In this document: positions 41,229 through 63,986 of the stretch, piece after piece
Layout: every line of letters starts with the position of its first letter
Position numbering within the stretch: the stretch's first letter is position 1
From: Cuniculiplasma divulgatum
Lineage (GTDB): Archaea; Thermoplasmatota; Thermoplasmata; Thermoplasmatales; Thermoplasmataceae
Reading direction: 5' to 3'
Assembly (NCBI GenBank): GCA_031200235.1
Contig: CP133595.1
Location: 62,001-126,000 of the forward strand
Length of the DNA stretch: 64,000 nucleotides
Made by a program: the position numbers and the translations under genes
Notes under the pieces: model-generated
The model's input: the letters and a program-made list of their open reading frames with translations, nothing else
Told to the model about the DNA's origin: nothing
Databases searched by the model: none

Positions 41229-41242
41229 AGTGATTGGTTTGT

Positions 41243-42172
41243 ATGACACCAAAGCCAATCACGACCACAGGCAATAGAAGCAAAAGAAGGTATTGGATCG
41301 GTTCGGACAGAAGGTATGACAGGTACAACAGGTCCCTGGTGGACAGGATTGAGGATCTCCTTGATCCGTCATTCCTCATGGACTGGAAGCTGCTCCTTGC
41401 AGATAACAACAGGGGAAAGAGAGGCCATCCCTACAGGACGCCAAATGCATTCATAACATTCCTTGCAAAACTCAGGGCAATGTACAGCATTCCCTTCAGG
41501 TCACTGGAGGGAATTGCCAGGATATTTGCAAGGATCACAGGCATTGCAACAGTATGCTACACAAGCATATTCCGAAGAATCAGAAAGATTGTGCCTGCAA
41601 TTCCCGATTCTCAGGGAAAGCCTGTGGACTGTGCAATAGATTCCACAGGCTTCAAGATCACCATCAGGGGTGATTATCTTGGATCAAAATGGAAGAAAGC
41701 AAGGAGAGGATGGTCAAAGCTTCATGCAGTCATATCCATAAATGATGTGTCAATGATGTCATTTACCATCACTGATGAACATGTGCATGATGCAAAGGCG
41801 GGAAAGGAACTGCTGAGGTCTGTAAGGGACAGAATCAGAAGGATATTTGCAGACAAGGGTTATGATTCAAAGTCAATATACAACTCATTCGGGGAGAATA
41901 CAGTAATACCGCCAAGGAAGAATGCATCCACAAGAAGCAGGGGATCATCTGCCAGGGCGAAAATAGTCAGACAGATCCGGAGTACATCGGAAAAAGAATG
42001 GAAGGAATCCGTTGATTATGGAAAACGATGGCATGTTGAGATATATTTCTCAGGACTCAAGAGGACAATGGGTGAGGTAATCAAGGCCAACAGGCCTGAT
42101 TACATAGTTCAGGAGATTGCACTGAAGGTGCAGTATTACAACGTTCTAAGAGAGATGACACATGCCTATTGA
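41243..42172 (+). CDS. IS5-family DDE transposase
   Basis: A ~309-residue transposase with a basic N-terminus (TGNRSKRRYWIGSDRRYDRY) and the DDE_Tnp_1 domain: first Asp in CAIDSTGFK, second in FADKGYDSKSIY, and Glu in RWHVEIYFSGLKR, the order seen in IS5-group elements. I use ATG 41243; a TTG at 41234 just after GGGGAG would add three residues. No frameshift or stop, so it is probably active. Confidence 0.93.
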   Translation: MTPKPITTTGNRSKRRYWIGSDRRYDRYNRSLVDRIEDLLDPSFLMDWKLLLADNNRGKRGHPYRTPNAFITFLAKLRAMYSIPFRSLEGIARIFARITGIATVCYTSIFRRIRKIVPAIPDSQGKPVDCAIDSTGFKITIRGDYLGSKWKKARRGWSKLHAVISINDVSMMSFTITDEHVHDAKAGKELLRSVRDRIRRIFADKGYDSKSIYNSFGENTVIPPRKNASTRSRGSSARAKIVRQIRSTSEKEWKESVDYGKRWHVEIYFSGLKRTMGEVIKANRPDYIVQEIALKVQYYNVLREMTHAY

Positions 42173-46527: not shown

Positions 46528-46797
46528 GCAAACTTGAATTTCTTATCATTATTGAACGTTTTTATGCATGGAACTCTTTCTGGGGACCCATTCATCTAAT
46601 CTCCACTGGCTAATCAATGCAGGCTTACGCGACAAAAGCATCAATAATATTATTCATTTATTAATATATTCCAAACTTTCATTCGTGAATATTTAAGCAA
46701 GCCCTTAAAACGGTAATGCTTGTATATGAGCCTATGGAATTTTATAAGCGCCCCGAACGGGTAGCGATGCATATGCTCCGAATATGGAGGGAACCGT
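46528..46797. promoter_or_regulatory. Transition from host genes to the mobile element, with promoter
   Basis: A 270-nt AT-rich stretch. TTTATAAG (46741-46748) is a strong TATA candidate that would start transcription near 46770, followed by a palindrome CCCGAACGGG (46752-46761) placed to act as an operator. GGAGG at 46786-46790 is the ribosome site of the first element gene. No tRNA end or clear attachment site was found, so the element's left boundary is only roughly here. Confidence 0.5.
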
Positions 46798-46956
46798 ATG
46801 CAGTTGCAGGCAGACTCAGTATTCGGTGAGCTTTCACGGAAGTACGGCGAGGCAAGGGCAGAGGAGCTGCTGAAGTTCTGGAGGGACAACAGGCTGGATC
46901 CTCCCTCTTCAAGCTCGGATGTAGAGGACTTTTTCTTCCAGGAGGTATCGTCATGA
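46798..46956 (+). CDS. 52-residue element protein, unknown function
   Basis: A short acidic protein (MQLQADSVFGELSRKYGEA..., ending FFFQEVSS) with an N-terminal amphipathic helix. It has a GGAGG ribosome site 7 nt before ATG and ends in an ATGA overlap with the next frame. It opens the element's long operon, so it may be a regulator or partner of the iteron-binding protein. No family recognised. Confidence 0.62.
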   Translation: MQLQADSVFGELSRKYGEARAEELLKFWRDNRLDPPSSSSDVEDFFFQEVSS

Positions 46957-47132
46957 GTTTCCGGGAATTAATGCAACACCCCCTGAGCTCACGGGTCGGA
47001 ATTAATGCAACACCAACAGCGGAATTGGTCGAGCACGGTTCCGGCTCATTTTTTTTATCGCCCATTAATGCAACACCCCGTGAGAATAAATGCAACACCA
47101 TTAATGCAACACCTGTGAGGTGGACGCCATGA
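46953..47132 (+). CDS. 59-codon open frame built across the iteron array
   Basis: The frame begins in an ATGA overlap and ends in another, exactly at ATG 47129 of the HTH protein. Its product would consist largely of iteron translations (ELMQHPL, INATP three times). The perfect fit between two coupled neighbours suggests it is translated, perhaps only to carry ribosomes through the origin to the next gene. It may not make a stable protein. Confidence 0.45.
   Translation: MSFRELMQHPLSSRVGINATPTAELVEHGSGSFFLSPINATPRENKCNTINATPVRWTP
46967..47113 (+). repeat. Iteron cluster 1: five copies of a 14-bp repeat
   Basis: ATTAATGCAACACC occurs at 46967-46980, 47001-47014, 47064-47077 and 47100-47113, with one variant (ATAAATGCAACACC) at 47086-47099 directly abutting the last copy. 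Start-to-start distances are 34, 63, 22 and 14 nt. The first copy continues into an imperfect palindrome centred on TGAGCTCA (46980-46995). All copies have the same orientation. This is how iteron-type replication origins look. Confidence 0.85.
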
Positions 47133-48100
47133 GGCCCTTCACACCATCCGCGAGGCATGAGGCCATTATCGAGGGGCTCTCACAGGGTCAGTCAATCAGA
47201 AAAATAGCGGCCTCGCTTGACCTTAATCCATCTACCATTATGAGAGATATAGCCCAGATGGCGAAAAGGGGATATATTGTAAAGCAGCTTCGCTCTAATC
47301 AGGTTCTCTATTCAATTCTGCCAATGGGCATGGAATTAATGCAACACCCCCTGAGGGAAAACCTCACGGGGGGGTCCATTAATGCAACACCCCGTGAGAG
47401 TGACATGAAGATCCGCCTTCATCGCCTCCAGATCAAGTTCGACCTGGTGAGTCCCATAAAGGACCCATCGGTGATAAAGTTCCAGGACTTCCCAAGCAAG
47501 ATCATACCGCTCGAGCACTGGTCCAAGAACATCATCCAGTTTGAGGACTTTACGGCAATCATCAGCACGAAATCGCTGATAATAACCGGGGTCCAGCGCT
47601 ACCTGAAGGCCTCCGATAACATAGAGGCCCAGGAATCAGACATAATGTCCGAGATAATCCCATTCGCTGAACAGGTGGAATCGAAAATCAGGAGGATCCA
47701 CAGTTCATTCAGGTTAAAACGTCTGGACAGAGGCGTTCTATCCGGCAAAATAATATCACGTGAATTCGCTTATGAGCATCATCCCATAGCGGAGAAGGCC
47801 AAAACAATGAGGATAGATGCACAGGACGGAAAGCCAAGGATAATAGTGGACCAGTCTAAGGGATTTCCCGAGCTGGAAACGGTCCACAGGGACACAGCAT
47901 CCGAAGATATGGAAATGCTCACCAGGAACACTGAGGTCCTTGCAGCAGCAGACCTCACGCAGGCCCTTAAGGCGATCAGGGAGTCAGCCCCAATTATCCT
48001 GGAGCAGTCCAAGCTATTTGCCACCACCCAGGACCAGATCTCTCAGCTGGCCTCCTCTCTGCAGCAGGTCATCGGAATCCTTGGAGGGATGGTAAGATGA
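47129..48100 (+). CDS. Winged-helix DNA-binding protein, candidate iteron-binding initiator or regulator
   Basis: A 323-residue protein. Residues ~8-65 form a helix-turn-helix (IIEGLSQGQSIRKIAASLDL; PSTIMRDIAQMAKRGYIV). Residues ~70-95 are themselves encoded by two further iterons (ELMQHPL...SINATPRES). The remaining ~230 residues (starting KIRLHRLQIKFDL) form an alpha/beta domain and a C-terminal helical region with likely coiled coil (LFATTQDQISQLASSLQQVIGILGG). There are no Walker, HUH or polymerase motifs, so it is not an ordinary Rep enzyme. By position it is the best candidate to bind the repeats. It overlaps both neighbours by ATGA. Confidence 0.72.
   Translation: MRPFTPSARHEAIIEGLSQGQSIRKIAASLDLNPSTIMRDIAQMAKRGYIVKQLRSNQVLYSILPMGMELMQHPLRENLTGGSINATPRESDMKIRLHRLQIKFDLVSPIKDPSVIKFQDFPSKIIPLEHWSKNIIQFEDFTAIISTKSLIITGVQRYLKASDNIEAQESDIMSEIIPFAEQVESKIRRIHSSFRLKRLDRGVLSGKIISREFAYEHHPIAEKAKTMRIDAQDGKPRIIVDQSKGFPELETVHRDTASEDMEMLTRNTEVLAAADLTQALKAIRESAPIILEQSKLFATTQDQISQLASSLQQVIGILGGMVR
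47335..47391 (+). repeat. Iteron cluster 2: two copies inside the HTH gene, with hairpin
   Basis: Two exact ATTAATGCAACACC copies at 47335-47348 and 47378-47391 lie within the HTH coding region. Between them (47347-47371) a hairpin forms: C-run plus TGAGG, loop GAAAA, CCTCA plus G-run. Flanking bases of these copies equal those of copies 1 and 3 of the first cluster, so the block looks duplicated. Confidence 0.8.
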
Positions 48101-48357
48101 GCAGGAAATGCGAGATGTGCCACAACCTCCTGCATTTTCCGCCTCCCTGGGAACCTGTCCCAGTAACTTCAAAGGTCACAGTGGAGACCCCGGAAGGAAC
48201 GAAATCATGGAGGATAGACGATATATGCGCTGCTGCAGTTGAGGAATTCATCCTTGAGTTTATGGATGACGTCAGGACAGGATTTAAGGACCAGGACGAG
48301 GCATATAGCCTTGACAGGAAAGTGTACCTTCAGAGGAAGCTGGAGGTAAAGCCATGA
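48097..48357 (+). CDS. Small CxxC protein
   Basis: An 86-residue protein beginning MSRKCEMCHNLLHF with one CxxC pair and a Pro-rich turn (PPPWEPVP), then a helical C-terminal half. A single pair could bind zinc in a dimer. It overlaps the HTH gene by ATGA and the next gene the same way. Family not recognised. Confidence 0.65.
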   Translation: MSRKCEMCHNLLHFPPPWEPVPVTSKVTVETPEGTKSWRIDDICAAAVEEFILEFMDDVRTGFKDQDEAYSLDRKVYLQRKLEVKP

Positions 48358-48797
48358 GCTCCCTTCTGATAATGAGCTGCTCAAAGACCAAGAAGCACCT
48401 GGACAATGTTCCGGCCATAGAACTGTACGATGGCCAGGCCTACAGGATAATAAGGAAAAATTCCGCTGAGAACCTTGAAATCCTGATAATATCCGCAAAG
48501 TATGGCCTTCTCAGGTCCACAGACATCATATCATATTATGACCAGGCAATGACAGTGTCCCGGGCCGCCGGTATGAGGAAAGAAGTCTCTGCAGGCATAA
48601 TGAATATTGTCTCCGGGGAAAACTTCAGGAGGATATTCATCAGCCTGGGATTTCCATACAACCTTGCAGTTTCAGAAGAACTCATGGGTTTCCTCGATGA
48701 AAATTTCCACCTGCAGGTAGCCCATGGGCCCATAGGGAAGAGGCTGCATCAGCTGAAGGAATGGCTTGGATCCCTGAAACAGGAGGCCCTGAAATGA
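48354..48797 (+). CDS. DUF6884-like protein
   Basis: A 147-residue alpha/beta protein with the pattern I associate with DUF6884: MSCSKTKK at the N-terminus, IELYDGQAYRIIRKN, ILIISAKYGLL and IISYYDQAM. The S-C-S-K-T-K and SAKYGL segments recall the Rossmann-like folds of YaaA and queuosine/archaeosine-type enzymes in phages. No biochemical role is established that I can cite. Coupled at both ends by ATGA overlaps. Confidence 0.65.
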   Translation: MSSLLIMSCSKTKKHLDNVPAIELYDGQAYRIIRKNSAENLEILIISAKYGLLRSTDIISYYDQAMTVSRAAGMRKEVSAGIMNIVSGENFRRIFISLGFPYNLAVSEELMGFLDENFHLQVAHGPIGKRLHQLKEWLGSLKQEALK

Positions 48798-50093: not shown

Positions 50094-50345
50094 ATGAGTA
50101 TGCACATTGAGATATTAGATGATGGCAGGATAGAGATTTACCTGTCGGACAAGTGGCTGAAAGAGGGCGCCAGAGAGGAACTAAAAGGGAAAACATTTCT
50201 GGATTTCTTTCCCACAGCCAATGAACCGGGCTCTTTCTGGAACCTCATGACCAATGGGGCTGACGCATCCACTTTCCCCATTGTGGTACTCACAGATGAT
50301 GAGTACAATGAGCGGTTCTCTGATGATGAGGAGGAACCGGAATGA
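50094..50345 (+). CDS. Small acidic protein
   Basis: An 83-residue acidic protein (MSMHIEILDDGRIEIYL..., ending DDEEEPE). ATG 50094 follows the zinc-finger stop by 14 nt; a GTG/ATG-like start at 50067 would overlap that gene. It ends in an ATGA overlap with the DUF5131 gene. Its charge would suit a nucleic-acid mimic or a binding partner, but there is no direct evidence. Confidence 0.58.
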   Translation: MSMHIEILDDGRIEIYLSDKWLKEGAREELKGKTFLDFFPTANEPGSFWNLMTNGADASTFPIVVLTDDEYNERFSDDEEEPE

Positions 50346-51124
50346 ACAAGACAGGGATAAGCTGGACTGATCTGACATGGAACCCGGTAAGCGGGTGCTC
50401 AAAGGTGAGTCCGGGCTGCCAGAATTGCTATGCCGAGGCGTGGTCGCACAGGTGGGGCAGGCCATTCGATGTTACATTGCATCCTGAGAAGCTCAAAGAA
50501 GTTAAGAGAATCCCATCAGGGAGCAAGGTATTCGTCAATTCTATGTCGGATCTGTTCCATGAGAGGGTGCCTTATACGTTTATATGGGGTGTAATGAAAG
50601 CAATTGAGAGCCGCCCTGATGTCATTTTCCAGATTCTTACGAAGCGCCCAGAGAGGATTGCGGAATACTTCTACAGTATGAGTACCCATCCTAAATTTGG
50701 CAATGGTGGCGACCATGAGGTCTACGTGATCCCGCCCAATGTCTGGCTTGGCGTCAGTGTTGAAATGAGTTTGTATTACGCTGAGAGGGTTGCAGAGCTT
50801 CTTGAACTTGGGACTCAGGGAATACATGCGGGCAAATTCTTCGTTTCTTTTGAGCCTCTCCTTGGGGATATTGGTCCTATAAAATTCAGCAATGGCTTCG
50901 ATAAGGTTGACTGGATCATCATCGGGGGAGAGTCAGGCCCTCATCACCGTCCCATGCAAATTGAATGGGCACGCAACATCGTCAGGCAGGCAAAGGATCA
51001 GGGCGTTGCCGTATGGATGAAGCAGCTTGGTGGCATAAGGCCCGGTGGCGAACTTGAGGACTTCCCAGAGGACCTGAGGATAAGGGAATTTCCGGCAATT
51101 GCCAGTAAGGAGAGTGAGGAGTAA
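50342..51124 (+). CDS. DUF5131 (phage Gp37/Gp68) family protein
   Basis: A 260-residue protein with the family's hallmark three-cysteine segment SGCSKVSPGCQNCYAE near residue 20, which recalls a radical-SAM-like C-x3(-5)-C-x2-C cluster, followed by VFVNSMSDLFHERVP, ILTKRPERI, LGVSVE and WIIIGGESGPHHRPM. Members are common in phages and plasmids and sometimes next to TcmP proteins; no TcmP is seen here. Enzymatic function unknown to me. Starts in an ATGA overlap. Confidence 0.9.
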   Translation: MNKTGISWTDLTWNPVSGCSKVSPGCQNCYAEAWSHRWGRPFDVTLHPEKLKEVKRIPSGSKVFVNSMSDLFHERVPYTFIWGVMKAIESRPDVIFQILTKRPERIAEYFYSMSTHPKFGNGGDHEVYVIPPNVWLGVSVEMSLYYAERVAELLELGTQGIHAGKFFVSFEPLLGDIGPIKFSNGFDKVDWIIIGGESGPHHRPMQIEWARNIVRQAKDQGVAVWMKQLGGIRPGGELEDFPEDLRIREFPAIASKESEE

Positions 51125-51645: not shown

Positions 51646-51869
51646 ATGGATATCTTAAGTTTGATCTGATTGAGCGAAAGCCAAAAACAGCGGTCTATCT
51701 CGTAAGATCATCTTTCAATGGCGAAGCACTGGGAAGGATATCATGGCATGGGGCCTGGAGGCGTTACGGCTTCTATCCCATTGATGATACTGTCTTTGAT
51801 TCAGCGTGCCTTGGAGAAGTTAAGGAATTCATAGATGGGCTGATGAAGGAGCGGGAGGAACAGAAATGA
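51642..51869 (+). CDS. Small alpha/beta protein, unknown function
   Basis: A 75-residue soluble protein (MNGYLKFDLIERKPKTAVYL...) with a strand-rich core and terminal helix. ATG 51642 overlaps the upstream stop, which excludes the longer frame from 51558. No family recognised. Confidence 0.58.
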   Translation: MNGYLKFDLIERKPKTAVYLVRSSFNGEALGRISWHGAWRRYGFYPIDDTVFDSACLGEVKEFIDGLMKEREEQK

Positions 51870-52399
51870 CCCCAAAGGGATCAGCTGCAGAAGGTATCCT
51901 GCTAAAGATGCTTCTCCAGAATGGAATAGAGGCAGAGCATGGATCCCCGTCAAGTCCAGGTGACATAGTGGTTCCACCGAATGTGATCATTGAGATAAAG
52001 GATACAAAGTCAGGGTCGTTCAGCTTCAAGCAAGCACATAAAGCCGGCCAACTAATGTCAAGGAGTGAAAGGCAGTGGAATGCCCTGAATGAAAAGAAGG
52101 AGAGGTTTCCATGGCTTGAGATCTTCTATGTTGTCAGGTTCCACAGGAAGGAGTGGAGATATTTCCATTTTCCCGACGAACCAAGTCCACTCAGGCTCAA
52201 GGAAGGCGGAGAAATAGGTGCACTTCTTCATCTGATTCTGGAAAGACAATCCCATCTTATGGATATCATGAGACCAGAACTGCCACAGGCAGAGGTAATC
52301 GAAAGCAATGGCAGGGCAACTATGAACCCCCCAGAAAATGGAAGGGCTAAAACGAATTCTAAACGAACGCAGAATAAATTACAGAAGGTGAAGAATTGA
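51866..52399 (+). CDS. PD-(D/E)XK nuclease-like protein, Holliday-junction-resolvase-like
   Basis: A 177-residue protein whose N-terminal ~110 residues match the Hjc-like pattern: GSAAEGILLKMLLQNG (helix with Glu), then GDIVVPPNVIIEIKDTKSG with the D...E-x-K catalytic strand. The C-terminal ~50 residues are polar and basic. It would cut branched DNA during element replication or recombination. Assignment is by motif only; no other resolvase is seen in the element. Confidence 0.68.
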   Translation: MTPKGSAAEGILLKMLLQNGIEAEHGSPSSPGDIVVPPNVIIEIKDTKSGSFSFKQAHKAGQLMSRSERQWNALNEKKERFPWLEIFYVVRFHRKEWRYFHFPDEPSPLRLKEGGEIGALLHLILERQSHLMDIMRPELPQAEVIESNGRATMNPPENGRAKTNSKRTQNKLQKVKN

Positions 52400-53801: not shown

Positions 53802-54971
53802 ATGAAATACAGAAGCGTAGGAGCAATAGTGCTGTTCCTCATCCTGGCTATCTTCATGGTGGCTTCCATGGGATACGTATTTTCTGCCCAGGATCAGAGT
53901 GCAGCTAACACGGGAGGCCTGAATACAGCTTCGGGCTATAGCGTGGCGAATGAGATAAGTGCGGCATGGATACTTCAGAACCACACGTACTATGCCATGA
54001 CAATAGTGGCGGACAAGGCCACCGGACAGGTAACCCTCACGGCACCCCTCGGAGTCAAAGGGTCAGTCATATACATACAGACAGACAATTCTTCGCAGTC
54101 TGCATGGAAATTACTGAACCAGAATGACCTGTACACGTACATGCAGATAGGATCCTCGAACCTTAAGGGGACCATAACTGCGGCATACATGTACTTCGGG
54201 TCCCCGGTCAATGACACGGGAACCACAGCGGTGGCGGATAAGGGAATCACCGGATACACAGTGAATACCACAATGTACTCGTCATCTGTGAACCAGCTCG
54301 GCAAGGCGGTGCAGATCCCGGCAGATGACATGCTGTTCTCGCTCCCCTCATCGACACCGCAGTATATGATACAGGTGAACGGCACAGTCGCAAACACCAG
54401 CCTTGCGGAATCCTTCACGGTGACACAGTACTGGCAGTACACAGCACACTACCCCCTTGTGACTGAGATCTTCCTCATAGCATTCGTGTTTGATGGCATA
54501 CTTGGATACCTGTTCTACAGGGCGCTCCCTGAGCACTACGGGCCGGAAGAGGACCGTGTCGTCAGGTGGCAGTCAAAGAAGGAGGCAAGGACCACATACG
54601 AAGGCATAGCGCTCCTGGGAATCACACTGATATTCCTTGGATACGCCGGAGAATTCACCCCCATATTCGGATGGGCCTCAGCCATAGCATTCCTGTCAGG
54701 ATTTGCCCTCTTCACAAACCTGCTGACAGCTGACACGCACTCACACACATACGGCAGGGCAATACTGGTAGGTTTCCTCGGGGGAGCAGCCCTTGTGGTG
54801 GTCCAGCTCTTCGTGGCATTCGGTTCGGCAGAGTATGACGCCCTGATATCGGGATACTTTGTAGCGGCACTCCAGGCATTCGTCTACATAGGAATAATGC
54901 TGGTTGTCTCCTACTTCGGCATCCTGAACACAAAGCGTGTGCACCTGAGGGAGAGGGGATCAGCGGAGTAA
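53802..54971 (+). CDS. Membrane protein with signal peptide, ectodomain and four to six helices
   Basis: A 389-residue envelope protein. Residues 1-30 are a signal peptide or anchor (SVGAIVLFLILAIFMVASMGY). An exterior beta-rich domain (30-215) is Thr/Ser/Tyr-rich with N-x-S/T sequons. The C-terminal half has one helix (PLVTEIFLIAFVFDGILGYLF), a charged loop (EHYGPEEDRVVRWQSKKEA) and about four more helices. GGAGG precedes the ATG by 9 nt. The family is not recognised. It leads the surface-protein block, so a scaffold or virion/complex membrane role is inferred. Confidence 0.72.
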   Translation: MKYRSVGAIVLFLILAIFMVASMGYVFSAQDQSAANTGGLNTASGYSVANEISAAWILQNHTYYAMTIVADKATGQVTLTAPLGVKGSVIYIQTDNSSQSAWKLLNQNDLYTYMQIGSSNLKGTITAAYMYFGSPVNDTGTTAVADKGITGYTVNTTMYSSSVNQLGKAVQIPADDMLFSLPSSTPQYMIQVNGTVANTSLAESFTVTQYWQYTAHYPLVTEIFLIAFVFDGILGYLFYRALPEHYGPEEDRVVRWQSKKEARTTYEGIALLGITLIFLGYAGEFTPIFGWASAIAFLSGFALFTNLLTADTHSHTYGRAILVGFLGGAALVVVQLFVAFGSAEYDALISGYFVAALQAFVYIGIMLVVSYFGILNTKRVHLRERGSAE

Positions 54972-54979
54972 GATAGGCC

Positions 54980-55339
54980 ATGGCAGAAGACACAGTCAGC
55001 GATGCAGAGGATGTTGAACAGACCGCATCGGCGGGCACCGACGAGGTACTCCTCCTGGTGTTCCTCGCCCTTGGCCTGGTCTTCATCCTTGCATTCGTCT
55101 TTGACTACAAACAGCTGGCCAATCTCGGTGTGGGTGAGATATCCTCCTTCCTGACGCCTGTGCAGGACCTCTTCAACAGCATCGGCAACCTGATAACAGG
55201 GCTCTTCAACGGCCTTGCAAAGGATGTATCATCAGGCATCTACGTCATCATGATAACGATGCACATCGATCCGTCCAGGGGGACAGCACTCATCCGCATA
55301 GCAGCCGTAAGGCTGCACATAATCCCGGCGGTGGTCTGA
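54980..55339 (+). CDS. Small hydrophobic protein, first membrane module
   Basis: A 119-residue protein with an acidic N-terminus (AEDTVSDAEDVEQTAS), a membrane helix (LLLVFLALGLVFILAFVFDYKQ) and an amphipathic/hydrophobic region (VQDLFNSIGNLITGLFNGLAKDVS). Its last ~30 residues look unlike the rest. The same frame continues after TGA into the next module, which is similar (see next entry and the finding). Not recognised. Confidence 0.6.
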   Translation: MAEDTVSDAEDVEQTASAGTDEVLLLVFLALGLVFILAFVFDYKQLANLGVGEISSFLTPVQDLFNSIGNLITGLFNGLAKDVSSGIYVIMITMHIDPSRGTALIRIAAVRLHIIPAVV

Positions 55340-55384
55340 ACGGTACTCGCAGATGCACCGCCAAAAACTTCAGCCGCCTCCGAT

Positions 55385-55636
55385 GTGGAGGCTGGCGCCA
55401 TTTCTTATCTCACAGTCATGCTGCTGGTAGGGATACTGGCATTCGTCTTTGACGGGCACCAGGTTGCCGCAGTGTTCGGCAATCTGTACCAGTCATTTCT
55501 TTCGGTCCCGCTTGGATTTCTCCACGGGATCTATAACTTATTGCTCTCGCTTGTGCAGTCCGTCTGGAACTACATAGCAGGCGGAGCAGCCAATATTGGA
55601 AATACAATCTACAGGAACACGGTGGGGAGGCTCTGA
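55385..55636 (+). CDS. Small hydrophobic protein, second membrane module
   Basis: An 83-residue protein (from GTG 55385) with a helix ending LVGILAFVFDGHQVAAVF, close to the LAFVFDYKQLAN of the previous gene, then a second hydrophobic stretch (LHGIYNLLLSLVQSVWNYIAGG). It is in the same frame as the preceding gene and separated only by one TGA at 55337-55339 and 45 sense bases. No good ribosome site precedes the GTG, so the two may form a single protein by readthrough or a decayed fusion. Confidence 0.55.
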   Translation: MEAGAISYLTVMLLVGILAFVFDGHQVAAVFGNLYQSFLSVPLGFLHGIYNLLLSLVQSVWNYIAGGAANIGNTIYRNTVGRL

Positions 55637-55851
55637 TGCGTATCACGCTCTTCCTTGTGGCCCTCCTCATGCTTGTGTACCTCATGGCCTCATTCTTTGG
55701 GTCAGGATACATCGGCATCGTATATGCGACTGCCCTGGGAGCATCAGCCACGGGGAGGATATCATTCCAGGGTGCATATGACATGGGTGTGGCTGTATAT
55801 GCAGCCATCATGATTGCAGCCTTCGGGCTTTCATTCAGGAGCGGGAAATGA
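55636..55851 (+). CDS. Two-helix membrane protein
   Basis: A 71-residue protein with two predicted membrane helices (LFLVALLMLVYLMASFFGSG; GVAVYAAIMIAAFGLSF). ATG overlaps the preceding TGA (TGATG). Small Gly/Ala-rich two-helix proteins of this kind are often major membrane components of virions or vesicles, but no homology is visible. Confidence 0.6.
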   Translation: MRITLFLVALLMLVYLMASFFGSGYIGIVYATALGASATGRISFQGAYDMGVAVYAAIMIAAFGLSFRSGK

Positions 55852-55952
55852 ACAGAAGGGACGAGGAGGAACAGAAGGAGGAGGCAGACCGGAGGAAATT
55901 CCTCATGGGATTTCAGGCCTTCGCCAGGTACATAACAGGAAGGTCGAGATAA
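55848..55952 (+). CDS. 34-residue charged peptide
   Basis: A very acidic/basic peptide (MNRRDEEEQKEEADRRKF...) starting in ATGA overlap and ending as TAATG into the next frame. Its precise fit between coupled neighbours supports translation; function unknown. Confidence 0.45.
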   Translation: MNRRDEEEQKEEADRRKFLMGFQAFARYITGRSR

Positions 55953-56023
55953 TGACAAAAATTAATATGCACACTGAGAGTAGACGGAGCATAATCGCTC
56001 CGCCGGGAGAGGAGGTGAAATGA
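55952..56023 (+). CDS. 23-residue peptide
   Basis: A short frame (MTKINMHTESRRSI...) between TAATG and the ATG at 56024, containing GAGGTGAAATGA that supplies the ribosome site for the next gene. It may be only a coupling device. Confidence 0.3.
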   Translation: MTKINMHTESRRSIIAPPGEEVK

Positions 56024-56281
56024 ATGGATGGGTATGATGAGGAAATACAGAGGGACATGCAAAATATAAAAGATGCCTCATTAAGAAGGCGTCTGGCATG
56101 GGTCATTGCAACGAGTTCACTCATGGCGATCTTGGAATATGCAATGATTATGATAGTTTATCCAGTGCAGGGAGACTTCTACCTGTTCTTGGTAGGCATA
56201 GGTTCAACAATTTTCGGCATAGTTCTTCTATCAGGAATTCCAGAGAAAATTGATAAAATAAGGTGGGAGGAGAATCAATGA
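56024..56281 (+). CDS. Two-helix membrane protein
   Basis: An 85-residue protein with an acidic/basic N-terminus (YDEEIQRDMQNIKDASLRRR) and two predicted helices (VIATSSLMAILEYAMIMIVY; FLVGIGSTIFGIVLLSGI). Codon use is AT-rich, like the first kilobase of the giant gene downstream. GGAGGTG is 7 nt before ATG; ATGA overlap with the next gene. Confidence 0.62.
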   Translation: MDGYDEEIQRDMQNIKDASLRRRLAWVIATSSLMAILEYAMIMIVYPVQGDFYLFLVGIGSTIFGIVLLSGIPEKIDKIRWEENQ

Positions 56282-59200
56282 ATCGTCGTTTTATTACTGT
56301 ACTAATTGCACTCCTCTTTTTTAGTTCTGTTTTTGGGATGATCTCATATATTCCATCCCATACAGCCCCCGATAGTACTGGGCATGTTGTATCTGATCTT
56401 TCACCGTTGGGAGTGACAGGAGGAACTTCAATTAGTGTAGCATACTGGACGAATGGTGCAGTATCTAACTCTGGAACAACCACAGTCAATCTACCAGTGA
56501 ATGAGAATAGCAGTGCAAATGGATATTCTTATTCAGCAGGTGCTGTGGGACAAAGTACTCCTTGGTCATTTTCAAGTGGAACTGCAACTCTCGACATAAC
56601 AACATCTTCCTTCTATTTCTATTCGGGTTCAACCATAACCTTTAATGTTGTATTTCCAGCAATGGTAGATTCTTCTGGAAACTATGTGGCCGGTACACTC
56701 GGTGCCACCCTTGGAACTTCGACTGGAACTGTCGTAGGCACATTTTCTCACGATTACGACTACGCTGGAACATCAGATGCGTATGTTGAAGCGTCTATGT
56801 CATTTGGAATTACCTTCTATTTTGCTGGCTCTCTTACTCTTGATATGACTCTTACATCACCTTCTATTGATACAGCAAATAGTCTTCAAGAAGGGTCAAC
56901 CCACACGTTGTCATCTGCTTCAACACAGATGGTTTCCTCTGAACCATCTGAAGGAGCGACCCCATTCGCTGTTGGATGGACATACGGTTCCGCAACTTCT
57001 TCTTTCATAATACCTCAATATGAGTCATCATATGATCTCGTAACTGAGAATTCAGCAAATTCTCCATTGACGGTGGCATATAATTCAAACTCCCAAACTG
57101 TTCCTTACACATTCACAGGCTCTCTTACACAAAATTCTATTACGTTTACTCCCCAGTCAGATCCGCCATCAGGTGCGACAGGAGAAGCAGCACCTTCATG
57201 GTCAGTTCAGTATTATCTTGGTTCACAGTATCAGGTCTCGTCAGCGTCTGTAACCCAGACCGCCAGTCCATCTTATAATTACACTCAAGTAAGTGGGACA
57301 ACCAATCAGGCTAACGCATCCTTCTCTTTCAGCGGAACTACTCCATCAACAGCGGTATTCATCCCTTATGAATCAAGCCAGAACTCCCTTAAAACAGACA
57401 GCACCAGCATCACATTCACGCCGACCTTCACCGTCAGCAATCCCTACTACACGTATGCACAGAATCAGTTGGTTCCCTCTTTGTCAGGTGCATCATCGGG
57501 TTCATTCACACCGTCGTCAGGAACAGCATCCCCTTCATTCACTGGGGATTCGGCAACATACACATCCTCTGCCTCACCGAGCTGGACTGTCTCCCTTAAC
57601 CTCTATGGGAATGTTGCCCCATCCGTTACAGCACCCACACTGGCATTCCAGGGCTCCGGATCAGAGGTATCCGCAACATTCACCATATCACAGCCCGATT
57701 TCTCCGGAGAGCTCCAGGATGCCGTGATCAACTGGGGAGGCAGAGCCACATCATCCTATGACAACCTGGTTCCGGGCACATACACCTTTTACTACAACTA
57801 TACCGGCACATACCAGGGGTCATTCTCCCAGACATATTCCCCCTATGTTGTTGTGACAAACGTCCCCAGTCCGGATACAAATGATCTGTCCGGGCTCATC
57901 ACAACAGGCCCATCCGCTTCATACACATTCGGTTTCTCCCTCCAGGCTACACCTTATGCCTCCGTCCTCCAGAGGGGCCAGTACATATGGCTGAACGTGA
58001 CAGGCTCCAATGTTGTGCCCACAGCGGCATCCATCGTGGTCAATGGCCAGCCTTCCCAGCCTGTGCCCCTGTATTCGCAGACCGGATCAACATACAGTTA
58101 CCGCTTCACCTCCCCGCTGTTCGGAATCCAGGTGATCACTGCGATCTGGACAATCGATCCATCAGGCCTAACCGACACCGCCACATACGAGTATGCCACA
58201 GCCCTCGTCCCCCCATATCTCGGAACCTATGTTTCAGCCCTTTACAGCAACACGGCAACCCATTCATATCAAATAACGTTATCCGGCGTCCCTTCTGGAA
58301 CAGGGTTTTATCAACAATTGCTTACAATAAATGACCCTTCAAGTTACGGAATCAACACGGCAGGCTCAAACGTGCAATTCACCGCACAAAATGGTTCATT
58401 ACTATACGCATGGGAACAGTCCATAAATAGCAGTGCTTTACAGGTCTGGGTCAAGAACTACTATGGCAATTCTGTAATTGATATGCAGGTTCTGCCTTCA
58501 TTTGAAAACTTACTTTCCGCATCTGGGTATCTCGGTAATTCAAATCCATCAACAGATAATGGAAGATATGTTTTCTATGGATATGGAAATTTCAATAACA
58601 CTTTATATCAACAAGGCTGGACTTATGATAATATACAAGGTCAGTACGGATTAAACATAAGTCGAACAAATGTAGTATTTAACGGAACAATACCAGATAA
58701 TATATTAGTTGTATATGGATGGTATTTAAGCAATGCTGCAGCAGAATATTATGGCATATACAGCGATCCAAATGTTGCTTATTATGTACAAGCGTATGGT
58801 ACAAGTGATTCATACACTATTCCAAGTGGATATGGACAAGCAATAATTGAGATTGGTGGTTATCCAGTGCAATCATCCTATGGAAGCCTTACCTCTGGTG
58901 CGTTTAATGGATACAATTCTACTTTTGGTTTTACAGGTATGAACGCTTATGAGTGGGGGTATTTTGACTATTCTAATGGTTATAAAATGTATGCTTCGAG
59001 TACAGGATTTAATTACAATGATAACGCAGTACCACTTATAACAAATACAACTCCATTACAACATAATTCTACAATGGATAGGTTTGTCATTGGAAGTAAT
59101 TTTGATTCTGAATCTGGAAGAGTTGCAGACTTAAAATATGTTATTCTTATTGAAACACCTCCATCAATGCCCACCTTCACCATCGGCACAGGAAGCATAT

Positions 59201-62200
59201 TTCAGGCGAATGCCACACAGACCTCCAAGATCTTCTACAACGGAGTGAGCAATTACGCCTCCAATCCACTCCTCCAGGTCTACACATACGATATCTATGA
59301 TTCCTTCTCCTCCAATTATATCACCATCCTGGCAAATCCGAACTGGACCTTCGTATCAGATTCCGGCTATGCGCTCCCCTATGATGCGGCCAGCAGCGAG
59401 CTCACATTCTTCAACGTATCGGGTGCAGGCCAGCTTCAGGCTCAATTTCTGCAGCCTTCACAGGAGATAGGGCAGCCCTCCTTTGTTTCCCTCTCCGGAT
59501 CACTGGACGGAAATTCCGTTTCCCTGTACTCTGGCTTTTCCTTCCAGGTATCATACACGCCCTTTGATTCCACCGCAGTGGAATATGCCAACTCCTCATC
59601 TCCGGAGTTCCAGCTGCCATTCGGGTCCACTGCTTCCATCAGCATCCTGGACCAGTGGGGCCAGATCGTGGGATCCTATTCAGGCCTCGTAATTGACCAG
59701 TCAACCATAGCCCTCACCATACCCATGAGCGTTTCCCTGGTGTATCCGCAATTTGAGAACATGTATCCGTCAGGCGTGAACATCACGGCGGATGGCCATA
59801 CCGTATTCATCGGCGCATACCTTTCCTTCTATATCGCCAATGACACATCATTCATCTGGACAGTCAGCACCTATGATTCATCAGTGGGCCATGACGTTAA
59901 CCTGTCAGGGACCAACACTACAAACGGCCCGTCATATACCCTGATAATAAGGGGCCCTCAGGCCATAGCATCTGAAATCATATATGTGGATTCATACGCA
60001 GGATCACAGACAGGCCCTCTGCAGTCAGCACCCCCTGACAATGTGTCCCTGGCGGTGAACGGCGTCCCGGAGACCATAGGGGATACTTTCTACGGTTACG
60101 TGGGAGAGCGGCTGGATGTGCAGGTCTATGATGTCACCGGCCAGCTCCTGTACTCAGGCACCGCATACATGAACAGCACAGGCAACTCCTTCACGGCAAA
60201 GATCTCTGATCCCTCCTATACGCTGTCGCTGAAAAATGATGAGCAGGCGAAACCAGGTACGGCAGCTGCCACTGAGATCATCAATGTCACCTCTCTGTCA
60301 ACAGGCCAGAGCTACATCTTCCCCAACACCATTGGAACAGAGGCATCCCTCTATCTTGCTGCTGGTAACTACACTGTATATGCACATGATAATCTCACGG
60401 CGAAACTCAACATCACCCTCTCCTCTGATCAGTCATACGTGATGTTCGGGCAGGAGCTCCTCACATCCCAGCAGTTCGACAACCTGACATCGCAGATCTA
60501 CAATGACACGTCCCATTTCGTCATCATCCCCTATTCCGTGTCGGTCAATATTCCCGTCAATGCCACAGAGAATTTCCTCTTCTCCCTTGAGACTGCATCC
60601 GGGGCCCAGTTCACGTCATCCCAGATCTCCTCATTGATATCCAATACAACGGTCAGGATCGGGAATTCTTCCGTTCCCGTCACGCTCATAAATGACTATC
60701 CCTACCTGGAGGCCTCATTCCGATCCCCATCCCTTTCAGGATCCTATACGCTCTTCATCCAGGGATATCTCTTCTCGGGATCCTCCGTAATCTCAGGAGA
60801 ATACTCACTGCAGTTCTCAGCCGAAACATCACCGGTGACATCCAGCGGAATGCATCTCTATATCGACGGATCAGGGGCCCAGTATGAAATGCAGTCCTAC
60901 ACATATGACTTCATACTCACCTACGACAATGGATCCTCACTGTCCAGGAATGCAACCCTTTCAGCTCTCTCCAATATGACAGCATATGTTTCAGGCCCCC
61001 ATGGAATTGTGCAGCATCTCTCCCCGTACTATGAGGACCCCGGGGTGCTCGCTGCAGCTTTTGACGTGAACCAGACAGGCAACAACTTCTCCATATTCGC
61101 CTCCACGCATCTCGATGATCCCACCCTGATTGATGCCTCCTATTCCCTGCCGTTCTCGGTGCTCATCCCGGCCAATTCCATCATCACGGTTCCGGAGGAC
61201 ACCCCGTCCCAGGTGTTGGCCAATACGACGACATCCTATGTCCTTGCCATGGAGTACCCCAACGGAACCAGGATAACAGGAACAGCCCTGTCAACAGTGG
61301 CAGCATCCCTGTCCGCATCCCTCAGGAATTCCGCATCCTACTCCGTGTCGATCCAGTCCTCCGCCTCATATGTGTATGTGAACTTCACCATTCCCCTGGC
61401 AGGATCCTACACACTCACCCTGACGGGATCTCCTGCCATTTCCGGCATTGTCTATCAGCTCGTCTATTCCTCTCAGATAACAGTATCACCACCACAGTCA
61501 GTCAGCCATGGGATCTCAGTGCAGATCACGGTGCCCGGGACAATCCAGGTGAGAAATGTGACAGATGCCACCATATCTTTCCTGGTATCCTCCGGATCCT
61601 CTGTTTTCGTTCCTGATCAGGGCCAGACAATATCCATAATGGCCAACACCTCCGTTTACATCATGGACGGATCCTCACAGTATTCCAGGGTGAGCTCAGT
61701 GTATCAGTCACCGGGGACCCTGTATGTCATCCTGAACATCTCCTCCCCCGGGTCCTATTACATCCTTGTGGATGTCCACAATACAACAGTCTCATCAGCG
61801 AATGTCTCTGCTGTCGCCAGGTCACAGGCCTTCGTGGCATCCACAAGCAATCCCGCAAACCCCACCACAGGATGGGACCAGTTCCGCAACATTGTGACAG
61901 GCCTTTATGCCCAGATACTCTACCTTGTCCTTGCAATAGGCACCGCCATTTTCTACGTATACCGTGCACTGAGGCGCAAGCAGCTCAAGCTCGACGATGA
62001 GGAGAACACATCAGGCCTGTTCATGGAGGCAATGACCATGTTCGCCATTCCGATCTTCAATTTATTCAAGAAGCCGGTGCCTCCGGAGCTGCAGCAGATA
62101 TATGATGCAATTCCGGCAAGGAGGAGGAACAAAATATACGCCATGATAACAAGCAGGCGGAGGGCCCTGATGCCAAAACCCCTCATGATAGGAAGGAAGA

Positions 62201-62220
62201 AAAATGAAAAGAAGCAGTAG
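56278..62220 (+). CDS. Giant (1980-residue) secreted surface protein, C-terminal membrane anchor
   Basis: The largest gene in the window. ATG 56278 overlaps the previous stop and begins a signal peptide (RRFITVLIALLFFSSVFGM). Residues ~30-1865 are extracellular, rich in Ser, Thr, Tyr, Asn and N-glycosylation sequons, with beta-sandwich patterns. Residues ~660-960 resemble a DUF2341-like lectin-type domain (SWIESG-like YAWEQSINSSALQVWVKNYY, DNGRYVFYGYGNF). Four ~110-residue Ig-like modules follow at ~1414-1860. A single membrane helix (LYAQILYLVLAIGTAIFYVY) near 1876-1898 leads to a basic cytoplasmic tail of ~80 residues ending RKKNEKKQ. The gene is a mosaic of AT-rich and GC-richer blocks. 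It could be a spike, adhesin or S-layer-like receptor. Confidence 0.8.
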   Translation: MNRRFITVLIALLFFSSVFGMISYIPSHTAPDSTGHVVSDLSPLGVTGGTSISVAYWTNGAVSNSGTTTVNLPVNENSSANGYSYSAGAVGQSTPWSFSSGTATLDITTSSFYFYSGSTITFNVVFPAMVDSSGNYVAGTLGATLGTSTGTVVGTFSHDYDYAGTSDAYVEASMSFGITFYFAGSLTLDMTLTSPSIDTANSLQEGSTHTLSSASTQMVSSEPSEGATPFAVGWTYGSATSSFIIPQYESSYDLVTENSANSPLTVAYNSNSQTVPYTFTGSLTQNSITFTPQSDPPSGATGEAAPSWSVQYYLGSQYQVSSASVTQTASPSYNYTQVSGTTNQANASFSFSGTTPSTAVFIPYESSQNSLKTDSTSITFTPTFTVSNPYYTYAQNQLVPSLSGASSGSFTPSSGTASPSFTGDSATYTSSASPSWTVSLNLYGNVAPSVTAPTLAFQGSGSEVSATFTISQPDFSGELQDAVINWGGRATSSYDNLVPGTYTFYYNYTGTYQGSFSQTYSPYVVVTNVPSPDTNDLSGLITTGPSASYTFGFSLQATPYASVLQRGQYIWLNVTGSNVVPTAASIVVNGQPSQPVPLYSQTGSTYSYRFTSPLFGIQVITAIWTIDPSGLTDTATYEYATALVPPYLGTYVSALYSNTATHSYQITLSGVPSGTGFYQQLLTINDPSSYGINTAGSNVQFTAQNGSLLYAWEQSINSSALQVWVKNYYGNSVIDMQVLPSFENLLSASGYLGNSNPSTDNGRYVFYGYGNFNNTLYQQGWTYDNIQGQYGLNISRTNVVFNGTIPDNILVVYGWYLSNAAAEYYGIYSDPNVAYYVQAYGTSDSYTIPSGYGQAIIEIGGYPVQSSYGSLTSGAFNGYNSTFGFTGMNAYEWGYFDYSNGYKMYASSTGFNYNDNAVPLITNTTPLQHNSTMDRFVIGSNFDSESGRVADLKYVILIETPPSMPTFTIGTGSIFQANATQTSKIFYNGVSNYASNPLLQVYTYDIYDSFSSNYITILANPNWTFVSDSGYALPYDAASSELTFFNVSGAGQLQAQFLQPSQEIGQPSFVSLSGSLDGNSVSLYSGFSFQVSYTPFDSTAVEYANSSSPEFQLPFGSTASISILDQWGQIVGSYSGLVIDQSTIALTIPMSVSLVYPQFENMYPSGVNITADGHTVFIGAYLSFYIANDTSFIWTVSTYDSSVGHDVNLSGTNTTNGPSYTLIIRGPQAIASEIIYVDSYAGSQTGPLQSAPPDNVSLAVNGVPETIGDTFYGYVGERLDVQVYDVTGQLLYSGTAYMNSTGNSFTAKISDPSYTLSLKNDEQAKPGTAAATEIINVTSLSTGQSYIFPNTIGTEASLYLAAGNYTVYAHDNLTAKLNITLSSDQSYVMFGQELLTSQQFDNLTSQIYNDTSHFVIIPYSVSVNIPVNATENFLFSLETASGAQFTSSQISSLISNTTVRIGNSSVPVTLINDYPYLEASFRSPSLSGSYTLFIQGYLFSGSSVISGEYSLQFSAETSPVTSSGMHLYIDGSGAQYEMQSYTYDFILTYDNGSSLSRNATLSALSNMTAYVSGPHGIVQHLSPYYEDPGVLAAAFDVNQTGNNFSIFASTHLDDPTLIDASYSLPFSVLIPANSIITVPEDTPSQVLANTTTSYVLAMEYPNGTRITGTALSTVAASLSASLRNSASYSVSIQSSASYVYVNFTIPLAGSYTLTLTGSPAISGIVYQLVYSSQITVSPPQSVSHGISVQITVPGTIQVRNVTDATISFLVSSGSSVFVPDQGQTISIMANTSVYIMDGSSQYSRVSSVYQSPGTLYVILNISSPGSYYILVDVHNTTVSSANVSAVARSQAFVASTSNPANPTTGWDQFRNIVTGLYAQILYLVLAIGTAIFYVYRALRRKQLKLDDEENTSGLFMEAMTMFAIPIFNLFKKPVPPELQQIYDAIPARRRNKIYAMITSRRRALMPKPLMIGRKKNEKKQ
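58255..59160 (+). other. AT-rich inserted module inside the giant surface-protein gene
   Basis: Between about 58255 and 59160 the coding sequence shifts from C/G-ending codons (TCC, CAG, GGC, ATC) to A/T-ending ones (ATA, AAT, TAT, TTA, AGT) and back, sharply at both sides and without breaking the frame. The encoded segment is the DUF2341-like domain. It looks like a domain acquired by recombination. Confidence 0.65.
60517..61850 (+). repeat. Four tandem Ig-like modules (protein repeats)
   Basis: By eye, units at about 60517-60840, 60841-61170, 61171-61497 and 61498-61850 share the pattern I/V-x-V/I-P, later N-x-T, a VYIxxG/SASVxxG-type strand, then a GSYTL-like closing strand (SGSYTLFIQG, AGSYTLTLTG, PGSYYILVDV). 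DNA identity is low, so these are old repeats. They form the stalk next to the membrane anchor. Confidence 0.5.
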
Positions 62221-62782
62221 CATAGGAATAGCCATCGTACTGATTGCCATGATGCCGTTTCTCGCAGCCGGCATATCAACCGCATCCCCGGGGGGACTGC
62301 CGGCAGGAATGAGTGCCCAGATAATGGGGTATTATGCACCCTATGATCTGTATGTGACGGCCCCCTCAGGCCAGAGCTCCCCCATGATTGCACCGTTCCA
62401 GCTGAACCTGACCAGCGTTGGCACCACCTCTGTCACCGTCAATGCCTCCGGTGCCGTGATATATGCCGGGACATTCACCAATCATACAGTCATCTATGAT
62501 AACACCACATATGCAGGCAATGTGAATCTCACAGTGACAATGGTATCGTCCCAGGGTACGGCCGTGATAACATGGAAGCTGGACTTCATGTCCCCTGTCA
62601 CATACATTTCCTACGTTAAGGCCAAGGTGCCGGTCTCCGTGGGTGTGCCCTATTATATGCTGGGCACATTCGGGGTGCTGGGTGTTTTCCTGACCATCAT
62701 ATTCATGCGGATCTGGACCCCGGGAATGAGGTACCGTGTAAAGAGCAAGTGGATCTCTGCAGGAGGTGTCCGCCATGTCTGA
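62204..62782 (+). CDS. Secreted/membrane protein, small surface partner
   Basis: A 192-residue protein with signal peptide (SIGIAIVLIAMMPFLAAGIS), a ~110-residue Thr/Val/Ser-rich extracellular beta domain with sequons, and a C-terminal helix (YYMLGTFGVLGVFLTIIFMRI) plus a short basic tail. It overlaps the giant gene by 17 nt and, having the same topology, may form a complex with it. Confidence 0.7.
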   Translation: MKRSSSIGIAIVLIAMMPFLAAGISTASPGGLPAGMSAQIMGYYAPYDLYVTAPSGQSSPMIAPFQLNLTSVGTTSVTVNASGAVIYAGTFTNHTVIYDNTTYAGNVNLTVTMVSSQGTAVITWKLDFMSPVTYISYVKAKVPVSVGVPYYMLGTFGVLGVFLTIIFMRIWTPGMRYRVKSKWISAGGVRHV

Positions 62783-63986
62783 CGGCTATGCGGAAGGCCC
62801 TGAACAGGACAGTCCGATACCGGGAAAGAGGCAGCCGTTCCGGAAGCTCTTCCGGAGGGGCGGAAAAACATACGTGGAGCCTGATGCGAGCCTCATCCAG
62901 ACCACCGTTGTGGAGAAGGGGGGATGGATGCGTGATTTCAGGAAATTCATCGAACGAAACCAGATACATTACATCGTATTCTTCACCCTGGTCCTCATCC
63001 TGACCTATGTGGCAGCCAGCCGGTATTATCCCGGATATACAGAGGTCATAACGGGCATAGTGGCCACGTCCATAATAGTGAGTGCAGCTGCATCATATTC
63101 CCAGGCAGTAGCTGATGACCGCCATCACCGGGAATGGATCCATGGTGCACAGTTTGAGTTCGACGAAATCGACCTGGGCCAGGAGATGGACAATCTGAAC
63201 CTGAGCAGGAAGGTGCTCCAGGTCCGCATGACCAGGGTTTTCCTCTACGAGATCAGAGATTACATGAGGACAGAGGAAAGCGCCCTGAGGATCCAGCTGG
63301 AGAATGACCATGTGTTCGATGGCCTCACCAAGATCCATGAGGTAACAAGCGTTGACGACACCGGGAGGATCTTCATAGGCGACAGGGACGGCATCCCCTC
63401 GGGAGTTGTGCTGCAGATGGGCATGCCGTCCGCAGACTACGTGGCGGAAAGAATAAAGAAGGCCCGGAAGGACATCGAGAAGAACGGCAACTCATATGAT
63501 GACATTCAGGGATTCATACGCCTACACACAGCATGGGGAAAGGTATGGGACAAGATGATGAAATACCAGAAGGAGAAGCACCTTCACATCATAGATGTGG
63601 ACGGATCCCCGGAATGGGCAAAAAAGTATTTCCTTGCCCTTGAGAAGGCATCCCTCCCATACTGGAGTGACCGCCCGGAGAAGGGGGAGGTTGGCATGTC
63701 CTTCTTCCACTCTATGCCGCCTGAGGCCCGGCTCCCCATCATGCTGCGCCTGAAGCGTGACTATGATGAGATCAAGCATGAGAAGGTGCAGATGGCCATA
63801 CAGAGGCAGTCCGACCTCCTTGACAACCGTGTTTTCGCCATTCTGGAGGTCCTGAAGATGCTGGGCATAATGGACGAGGAGATCGAGAAGATCCTGGCAC
63901 AGAAGAAGATCTCCCTCACGTCTGTGGAGGACAGGGAGATCATGCTGAAAATAGAGGAGGCGAAGAAAGCTGCCGGAGAACAGTGA
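62775..63986 (+). CDS. Membrane-anchored cytoplasmic protein of the envelope block
   Basis: A 403-residue protein. ATG 62775 is preceded by a strong AGGAGGTG site 6 nt upstream, inside the previous gene. A basic cytoplasmic N-terminus (PGKRQPFRKLFRRGGKTY) leads to two membrane helices (IHYIVFFTLVLILTYVAAS; YTEVITGIVATSIIVSAAASY), then ~290 cytoplasmic residues, acidic and helical, with likely coiled coils near the C-terminus (ILEVLKMLGIMDEEIEKIL). No Walker motifs, so not an ATPase. It could connect the surface proteins to an inner partner encoded beyond the window. Confidence 0.7.
   Translation: MSDGYAEGPEQDSPIPGKRQPFRKLFRRGGKTYVEPDASLIQTTVVEKGGWMRDFRKFIERNQIHYIVFFTLVLILTYVAASRYYPGYTEVITGIVATSIIVSAAASYSQAVADDRHHREWIHGAQFEFDEIDLGQEMDNLNLSRKVLQVRMTRVFLYEIRDYMRTEESALRIQLENDHVFDGLTKIHEVTSVDDTGRIFIGDRDGIPSGVVLQMGMPSADYVAERIKKARKDIEKNGNSYDDIQGFIRLHTAWGKVWDKMMKYQKEKHLHIIDVDGSPEWAKKYFLALEKASLPYWSDRPEKGEVGMSFFHSMPPEARLPIMLRLKRDYDEIKHEKVQMAIQRQSDLLDNRVFAILEVLKMLGIMDEEIEKILAQKKISLTSVEDREIMLKIEEAKKAAGEQ

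Follow-up and report, generated by a model that had tools for sequence, protein, structure and literature searches.

A 323-amino-acid winged helix-turn-helix (wHTH) protein gene of the acidophilic archaeon Cuniculiplasma divulgatum is accompanied by seven 14-bp direct repeats (iterons), lying on both sides of the segment that encodes its DNA-binding domain. On balance, we read this locus as a self-contained unit in which the initiator and origin of an integrative mobile element lie together. Distant relatives keep the layout with different repeat sequences, which suggests that the unit is probably an undescribed kind of replication start unit. The stretch of DNA analysed, hereafter the window, is 64,000 nucleotides long.

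Iteron array and the winged-helix protein

An earlier note made from the DNA letters had described six exact copies and one single-change copy of a 14-bp repeat in a single direction, together with two dyads; all were recovered, the repeats on the plus strand (Table 1). Its placement of the two clusters over the 5' region and the beginning of the HTH gene holds for cluster 1 (46967-47113, five copies), which lies upstream and ends 16 bp ahead of the ATG. Cluster 2 (47335-47391, two copies), however, is wholly intragenic, covering codons ~69-88 in the linker-coding part after the winged helix. With up to three mismatches allowed, ATTAATGCAACACC gave 17 matches in the window, whereas 100 shuffles averaged 7.3 and never exceeded 14. 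A blind search, in which any 11-mer recurring within 330 bp of the ATG would count, returned seven copies, against no more than two in 60 shuffles. The genome scan proposed as a check in the earlier note placed all six exact copies in the 2,006,340-bp host genome at this locus, with one-mismatch matches at only one further place. A scattered genome repeat was rejected on this basis, as it was for the related locus of Ferroplasma acidarmanus Fer1. No second array was found in the host genome or in the element by whole-genome scanning, as expected for a cis-acting origin. A clear A+T-rich unwinding region was not seen beside the window iterons, where there is just a T-tract (47049-47056) that could be a promoter, terminator, or unwinding element, and no Orc1/Cdc6 gene lies beside them. 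GC skew was uninformative because nearly all genes of the element run on one strand.

Table 1. Coordinates of the locus and associated features in the window, and iteron cores of the protein family
Feature	Position	Strand	Description
attL	46749..46761	.	CGCCCCGAACGGG; 13-bp direct repeat of tRNA-Asp 3' end
ORF1	46798..46956	+	52 aa; small protein upstream of iterons, conserved in most relatives
ORF2	46953..47132	+	59-codon open frame; carries cluster 1; overlaps ORF1 stop and HTH start (ATGA)
Iteron 1	46967..46980	+	exact ATTAATGCAACACC; offset -162 from ATG of wHTH gene
Dyad	46981..46995	.	CCCTGAGCTCACGGG; between iterons 1 and 2; same place in G135 is a perfect palindrome
Iteron 2	47001..47014	+	exact ATTAATGCAACACC; offset -128
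T8 tract	47049..47056	+	7 bp upstream of iteron 3
Iteron 3	47064..47077	+	exact ATTAATGCAACACC; offset -65
Iteron 4	47086..47099	+	one-change variant ATAAATGCAACACC (begins ATAAATGC); offset -43; first of tandem pair
Iteron 5	47100..47113	+	exact ATTAATGCAACACC; offset -29; second of tandem pair
Putative initiator gene	47129..48100	+	323-aa wHTH protein; ORF with Shine-Dalgarno (GAGGTG ahead of ATG 47129); homologues in Thermoplasmatota
wHTH-coding segment	47129..47326	+	residues 1-66; generic Pfam HTH matches; AF2 pLDDT ~70-90
Iteron 6	47335..47348	+	exact ATTAATGCAACACC; intragenic, offset +206
Dyad	47363..47398	.	CTCACGGGG...CCCCGTGAG; encloses iteron 7; conserved in G135
Iteron 7	47378..47391	+	exact ATTAATGCAACACC; intragenic, offset +249
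C-terminal domain-coding segment	47411..48100	+	from family alignments
177-aa protein	51866..52399	+	PD-(D/E)XK-like look, by inspection only; no library match; downstream context
attR	genome ~134042, L010:8043		25.3 kb from attL, at tRNA-Asp, beside tyrosine integrase
Core, window and G135			ATTAATGCAACACC
Core, G031			AAGGGAAACACC
Core, G100			AAGGGCAACACC
Core, G105			AAGGGAACCACC
Core, G033			GTGGAAACACC
Core, Fer1 and G013			AAAGTGGAAGCA
Core, G019			TAAACCGGCC
Core, G424			TTGACGCAA

In agreement with the earlier observation that the HTH protein lacks a recognised Rep catalytic motif, the only Pfam or NCBIfam models to match it were generic HTH ones, and none was of a named family. Neither Rep_3 nor any other plasmid Rep model in Pfam or NCBIfam matched the 323-aa protein, identity with Replic_Relax (PF13814) was rejected as there was no Pfam match, and the C-terminal part matched nothing in Pfam or NCBIfam. 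Homology to O-like proteins was not found for the window protein, and phrog_678 matched the wHTH of one relative only (E 0.006). Among PDB sequences, the closest to the wHTH was the pNOB8 centromere-binding protein AspA (E 2.4e-6), which was also among the Foldseek matches, and TubR matched weakly (E 0.32). Residues invariant in seven homologues include H98, D140, E212, A214, D241, S243, E248, and E250. A new initiator type, which the earlier note had put forward as a possibility, is our best inference.

AF2 models were poor beyond the wHTH. For the window protein, a PDB fold search with one low-confidence model returned TBP folds (E 5.6e-4), which we treat as a lead only because a second model failed to reproduce it. 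The TBP fold is that of Rep_trans and Rep-Arvir (PMC13107129), and a rolling-circle initiator related to these proteins, with the C-terminal domain as a TBP-like endonuclease and the two dyads as nick sites, would accommodate both the match and the dyads. Such an initiator is highly improbable here. Homologue alignments of the C-terminal domain contain no invariant tyrosine, PF25227 matched neither the protein nor anything across 117 genomes of the order, and hhalign to HRPV-3 ORF9 returned a probability of 0.5%.

Conservation and layout across the protein family

A single-protein query of genome and viral contigs gave no match, and an alignment query returned four genome relatives. Homologues were present in F. 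acidarmanus Fer1 (L058), a second genome of the Ferroplasma genus (G013), several MAGs of the same family (G031, G100, G033, G105, and G019), and a genome from a different family within the class (G135). A distant homologue (G424; hhalign 96.7%, E 4e-10) came from elsewhere in the phylum. Apart from G135, identity to the window protein was ~18-35%. The window and all of these homologues except G424, which was considered separately, make up a main set of nine loci. No homologue and no extrachromosomal copy was found in PLSDB, INPHARED, or IMG/VR. The G033 gene is broken between its halves (L059:1934-3026), with the iterons still there, and the G135 element carries a second, truncated copy of the C-terminal domain fused in frame to a predicted membrane protein (L066; G135:C21:17065-17532).

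When the window is compared with G135, all seven iterons match without exception (98 of 98 positions), and the variant iteron 4 occupies the identical place in both. Outside the iterons, by contrast, identity falls to 77/130 upstream (59%) and 641/941 in the coding region (68%). Since the iterons occupy all three reading frames, it is the DNA and not a peptide that is conserved; a peptide repeat was rejected on the same observation, and on the differing iteron sequences between lineages. On this comparison, with invariant iterons set in flanks that have diverged, and on the layout shared by relatives, the protein-iteron pair is a real cis-acting unit under selection at the DNA level. As is general for iteron origins, same-direction repeats lie at a DNA-binding gene, travel with the protein family, and are selected as DNA.

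Iterons were found at all ten loci, usually with a different sequence in each lineage (Table 1); they co-vary with the protein family, and the layout is retained for longer than the sequence. This bears out the earlier assignment of the repeats to the HTH gene, rather than to a genome-wide scatter. Every locus of the main set (9/9) has a tandem pair with exact 14-bp spacing just upstream of the gene, at about -26/-40 to -34/-48, at least one additional upstream copy at -65 to -200, and one or two intragenic copies at +206 to +296, the offsets for G019 depending on an assigned, uncertain start codon. A T5-8 tract 7-8 bp ahead of an iteron is likewise common to all nine. The protein of G424 has an N-terminal extension, and its iterons are all intragenic, with four immediately preceding the wHTH-coding segment and three immediately following it, some of them inverted (six exact 9-mers, against no more than three in 200 shuffles). 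Because G424 keeps the bracket with every iteron inside the gene, the rule is that iterons bracket the wHTH-coding segment.

The blind 11-mer search was clearly above shuffles for the window, G031, G100, G105, and G019, slightly so for Fer1 (4 versus no more than 3), and not for G013 and G033, where copies are more variable and iterons were recognised by pattern and position. The ten loci share ancestry and hence are not independent events. No such array occurred at 18 unrelated wHTH loci from the same profile search. A separate wHTH family of Thermoplasmata with an RxHxxQFK-like motif (L055 in G044, L033 in G070, and L034 in G053), one member of which is directly downstream of an integrase, is possibly a distant paralogue; no iterons were found at these three loci by the blind 11-mer search, and they were left out of the family comparison.

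The same layout bears on whether the protein is simply an autoregulator, bound to the repeats solely as repressor or activator of its own operon (and, in the circular form of the element, of int-ORF1-ORF2) and so setting lysogeny or excision, with no part in initiation. Generic wHTH proteins are mostly regulators, and the window tandem pair at -29/-43 lies over the presumed promoter or leader. Yet there are no sites near other genes of the element, the clusters within the gene after the wHTH segment are conserved in every family member although a simple repressor needs none, and the C-terminal domain is large and conserved. We therefore consider regulation alone unlikely; autoregulation alongside initiation, on the other hand, is probable.

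Integrated elements and their gene content

An element of ~25.3 kb is integrated in tRNA-Asp, and the locus forms its left end, adjoining attL. The interior of this element encodes a serine recombinase and a VirB4-like P-loop ATPase. Elements with visible ends occupy tRNA-Asp (window and G105) or tRNA-Ala (Fer1 and G019), and in these the wHTH gene adjoins the left attachment site. Besides ORF1, ORF2, and the wHTH gene, the Fer1 element (6.3 kb, L058:9556-15838, at tRNA-Ala) encodes an integrase and a serine recombinase, as well as two small and two membrane-type proteins. A second integrase fragment precedes it and, because this fragment shares the element's end, suggests that the site once held a tandem element. 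All copies with resolved context are integrated, and two small contigs have no terminal overlap.

Proximity to the attachment site, from which the array starts ~220 bp away in the window (attL) and ~330 bp away in Fer1, with the same order in other relatives, could mean that the repeats are accessory recombination sites, either integrase arm sites or excision-factor sites with attP nearby. This is very unlikely, as no copies occur on the integrase side of attP and the array extends more than 600 bp from att, into another gene. Moreover, the iterons track the wHTH-coding segment and not att, those of G424 being without exception intragenic.

ORF1 belongs to no Pfam family; ORF1-like ORFs were seen by eye in G031, Fer1, G013, G105, and G019. 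Open frames equivalent to ORF2 were read from the sequences of G031, G100, G105, Fer1, and G013, and the ORF2 peptide may be non-functional. Read from the sequence, the integrase frame runs in phase through the 13-bp attachment sequence, and in a circular form it would end within ORF1; ORF2 and the wHTH gene would come next, with start and stop codons that overlap. Since the integrase frame crosses att into ORF1, the order after excision would be int-ORF1-ORF2-initiator, and we infer an operon that would be complete only in the excised circle.

Downstream of the wHTH gene, relatives encode a resolvase, either of the serine type or a short tyrosine recombinase. The homologous gene is also followed by a Holliday-junction-resolvase-like protein of 131 aa in G031 and G135; the one from G031 has a match to phrog_2002 Holliday junction resolvase (E 7e-7), and both differ from the 177-aa protein of the window. 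The library scan, which covered the proteins of the 25.3-kb element apart from some small ORFs, identified none as a known Rep or as an Orc1/Cdc6, MCM, polymerase, HUH, or PF25227 protein, and inspection of the 6.3-kb Fer1 element by eye likewise brought up no such protein.

Initiation, partition, and known systems

With no recognised Rep, a single cis-acting array, and resolvases and Holliday-junction-resolvase-like neighbours in relatives, an initiator with its nested origin is the most economical reading of the locus. The setting, beside integrase and attP with resolvase or Holliday-junction-resolvase-like genes following in relatives, resembles that on replicating plasmids and viruses. On this reading, the N-terminal winged helix would recognise the 14-bp direct repeats bracketing its own coding segment, and the gene would be autoregulated when the tandem pair nearest the promoter is bound. 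Occupancy of the full array would then open or mark the origin, and the C-terminal domain would recruit the host replicative machinery.

Some wHTH proteins have iteron centromeres, and the likeness to AspA makes a partition complex, in which a centromere-binding protein and an iteron centromere act as in AspA-, TubR/tubC-, or StbA-like systems, a rival to take seriously. However, no motor gene was recognised: the scanned element proteins included no recognisable ParA, ParM, or TubZ, and inspection of the 6.3-kb Fer1 element by eye revealed none either. The site of AspA is a single 23-bp palindrome ahead of the gene encoding it (PMC5120986), not a set of direct repeats within the gene, and intragenic sites would be unexpected for partition. 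AspA works with ParB and ParA, neither of which was recognised here. Unlike AspA, the window protein has a C-terminal domain, whose conservation partition would leave unexplained. Taken together, partition appears rather improbable despite the shared wHTH domain.

For an initiator with a nested origin, the closest functional analogue in layout is lambda O, as the lambda origin maps within the O gene (PMC5043065). In both cases repeats lie inside the gene of the initiator, putative here, between the segments for the N-terminal DNA-binding and C-terminal domains. The Cuniculiplasma locus differs in its archaeal host, unrelated protein, and second cluster upstream, and no loader gene P was recognised. 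Its sites are 14-bp direct, non-palindromic repeats, whereas those of lambda are 19-bp inverted repeats that bind O dimers. Bacterial iteron plasmids (Rep_3, RepA, and pi) similarly have direct repeats of one orientation upstream of a winged-helix gene, some of them 21-22 bp apart as here. In contrast to these plasmids, there is no Rep match, the iterons continue into the gene, and the 14-bp tandem spacing is not a whole number of turns.

Among archaeal systems, an excision-completed int-rep operon has been shown experimentally for the virus SNJ2 (PMC13107129). The window element resembles SNJ2 with Rep-Arvir (PF25227/DUF7845) in being an archaeal integrative element in which excision would join int to a wHTH-containing Rep, putative here, with a possible but weakly indicated TBP-like domain. 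It is unlike Rep-Arvir in having no detectable sequence relation, the wHTH at the opposite end, no invariant Tyr, and iterons instead of a downstream hairpin. Plasmids pTA1 and pPO1 of the Thermoplasmatales use an Orc1/Cdc6-like protein (PMC3177234). They come from the same archaeal order and also have repeats beside the presumed initiator gene, but an Orc1/Cdc6-like protein was not recognised in the window element.

More tentatively, at a little short of an even chance in our estimation, the homologues may constitute an undescribed archaeal initiator family. The wHTH and its sites would form one inseparable cassette, with iterons on both sides and partly or wholly within reading frames, so that specificity and origin could be inherited or swapped together. 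This family would span integrative elements of at least two families in one Thermoplasmatota class and a distant member elsewhere in the phylum. The replication protein is unrecognisable in many archaeal plasmids and viruses, and here a concrete candidate family is available for Thermoplasmata elements, one that includes an element of the cultured F. acidarmanus Fer1. The sequence rule, repeats flanking the winged-helix-coding segment on both sides, can be used to find further members, and genetic tools for extreme acidophiles could draw on the locus for an origin.

Elsewhere in the window element are DUF6884/YaaA-like and DUF5131 (phage Gp37/Gp68-like) genes (48354-48797 and 50342-51124). A module at 53802-63986, continuing at L010:378-1665, encodes the VirB4-like P-loop ATPase (phrog_22963) and several membrane proteins, along with a secreted protein of 1980 aa that is anchored at its C-terminus. 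Broadly similar modules are present in the G135 and G105 elements, and the module possibly serves virion formation or transfer in an archaeal virus or plasmid of an undescribed family. Two transposase-like genes, recognised by eye, are found elsewhere in the window (4089-5117 and 41234-42172).
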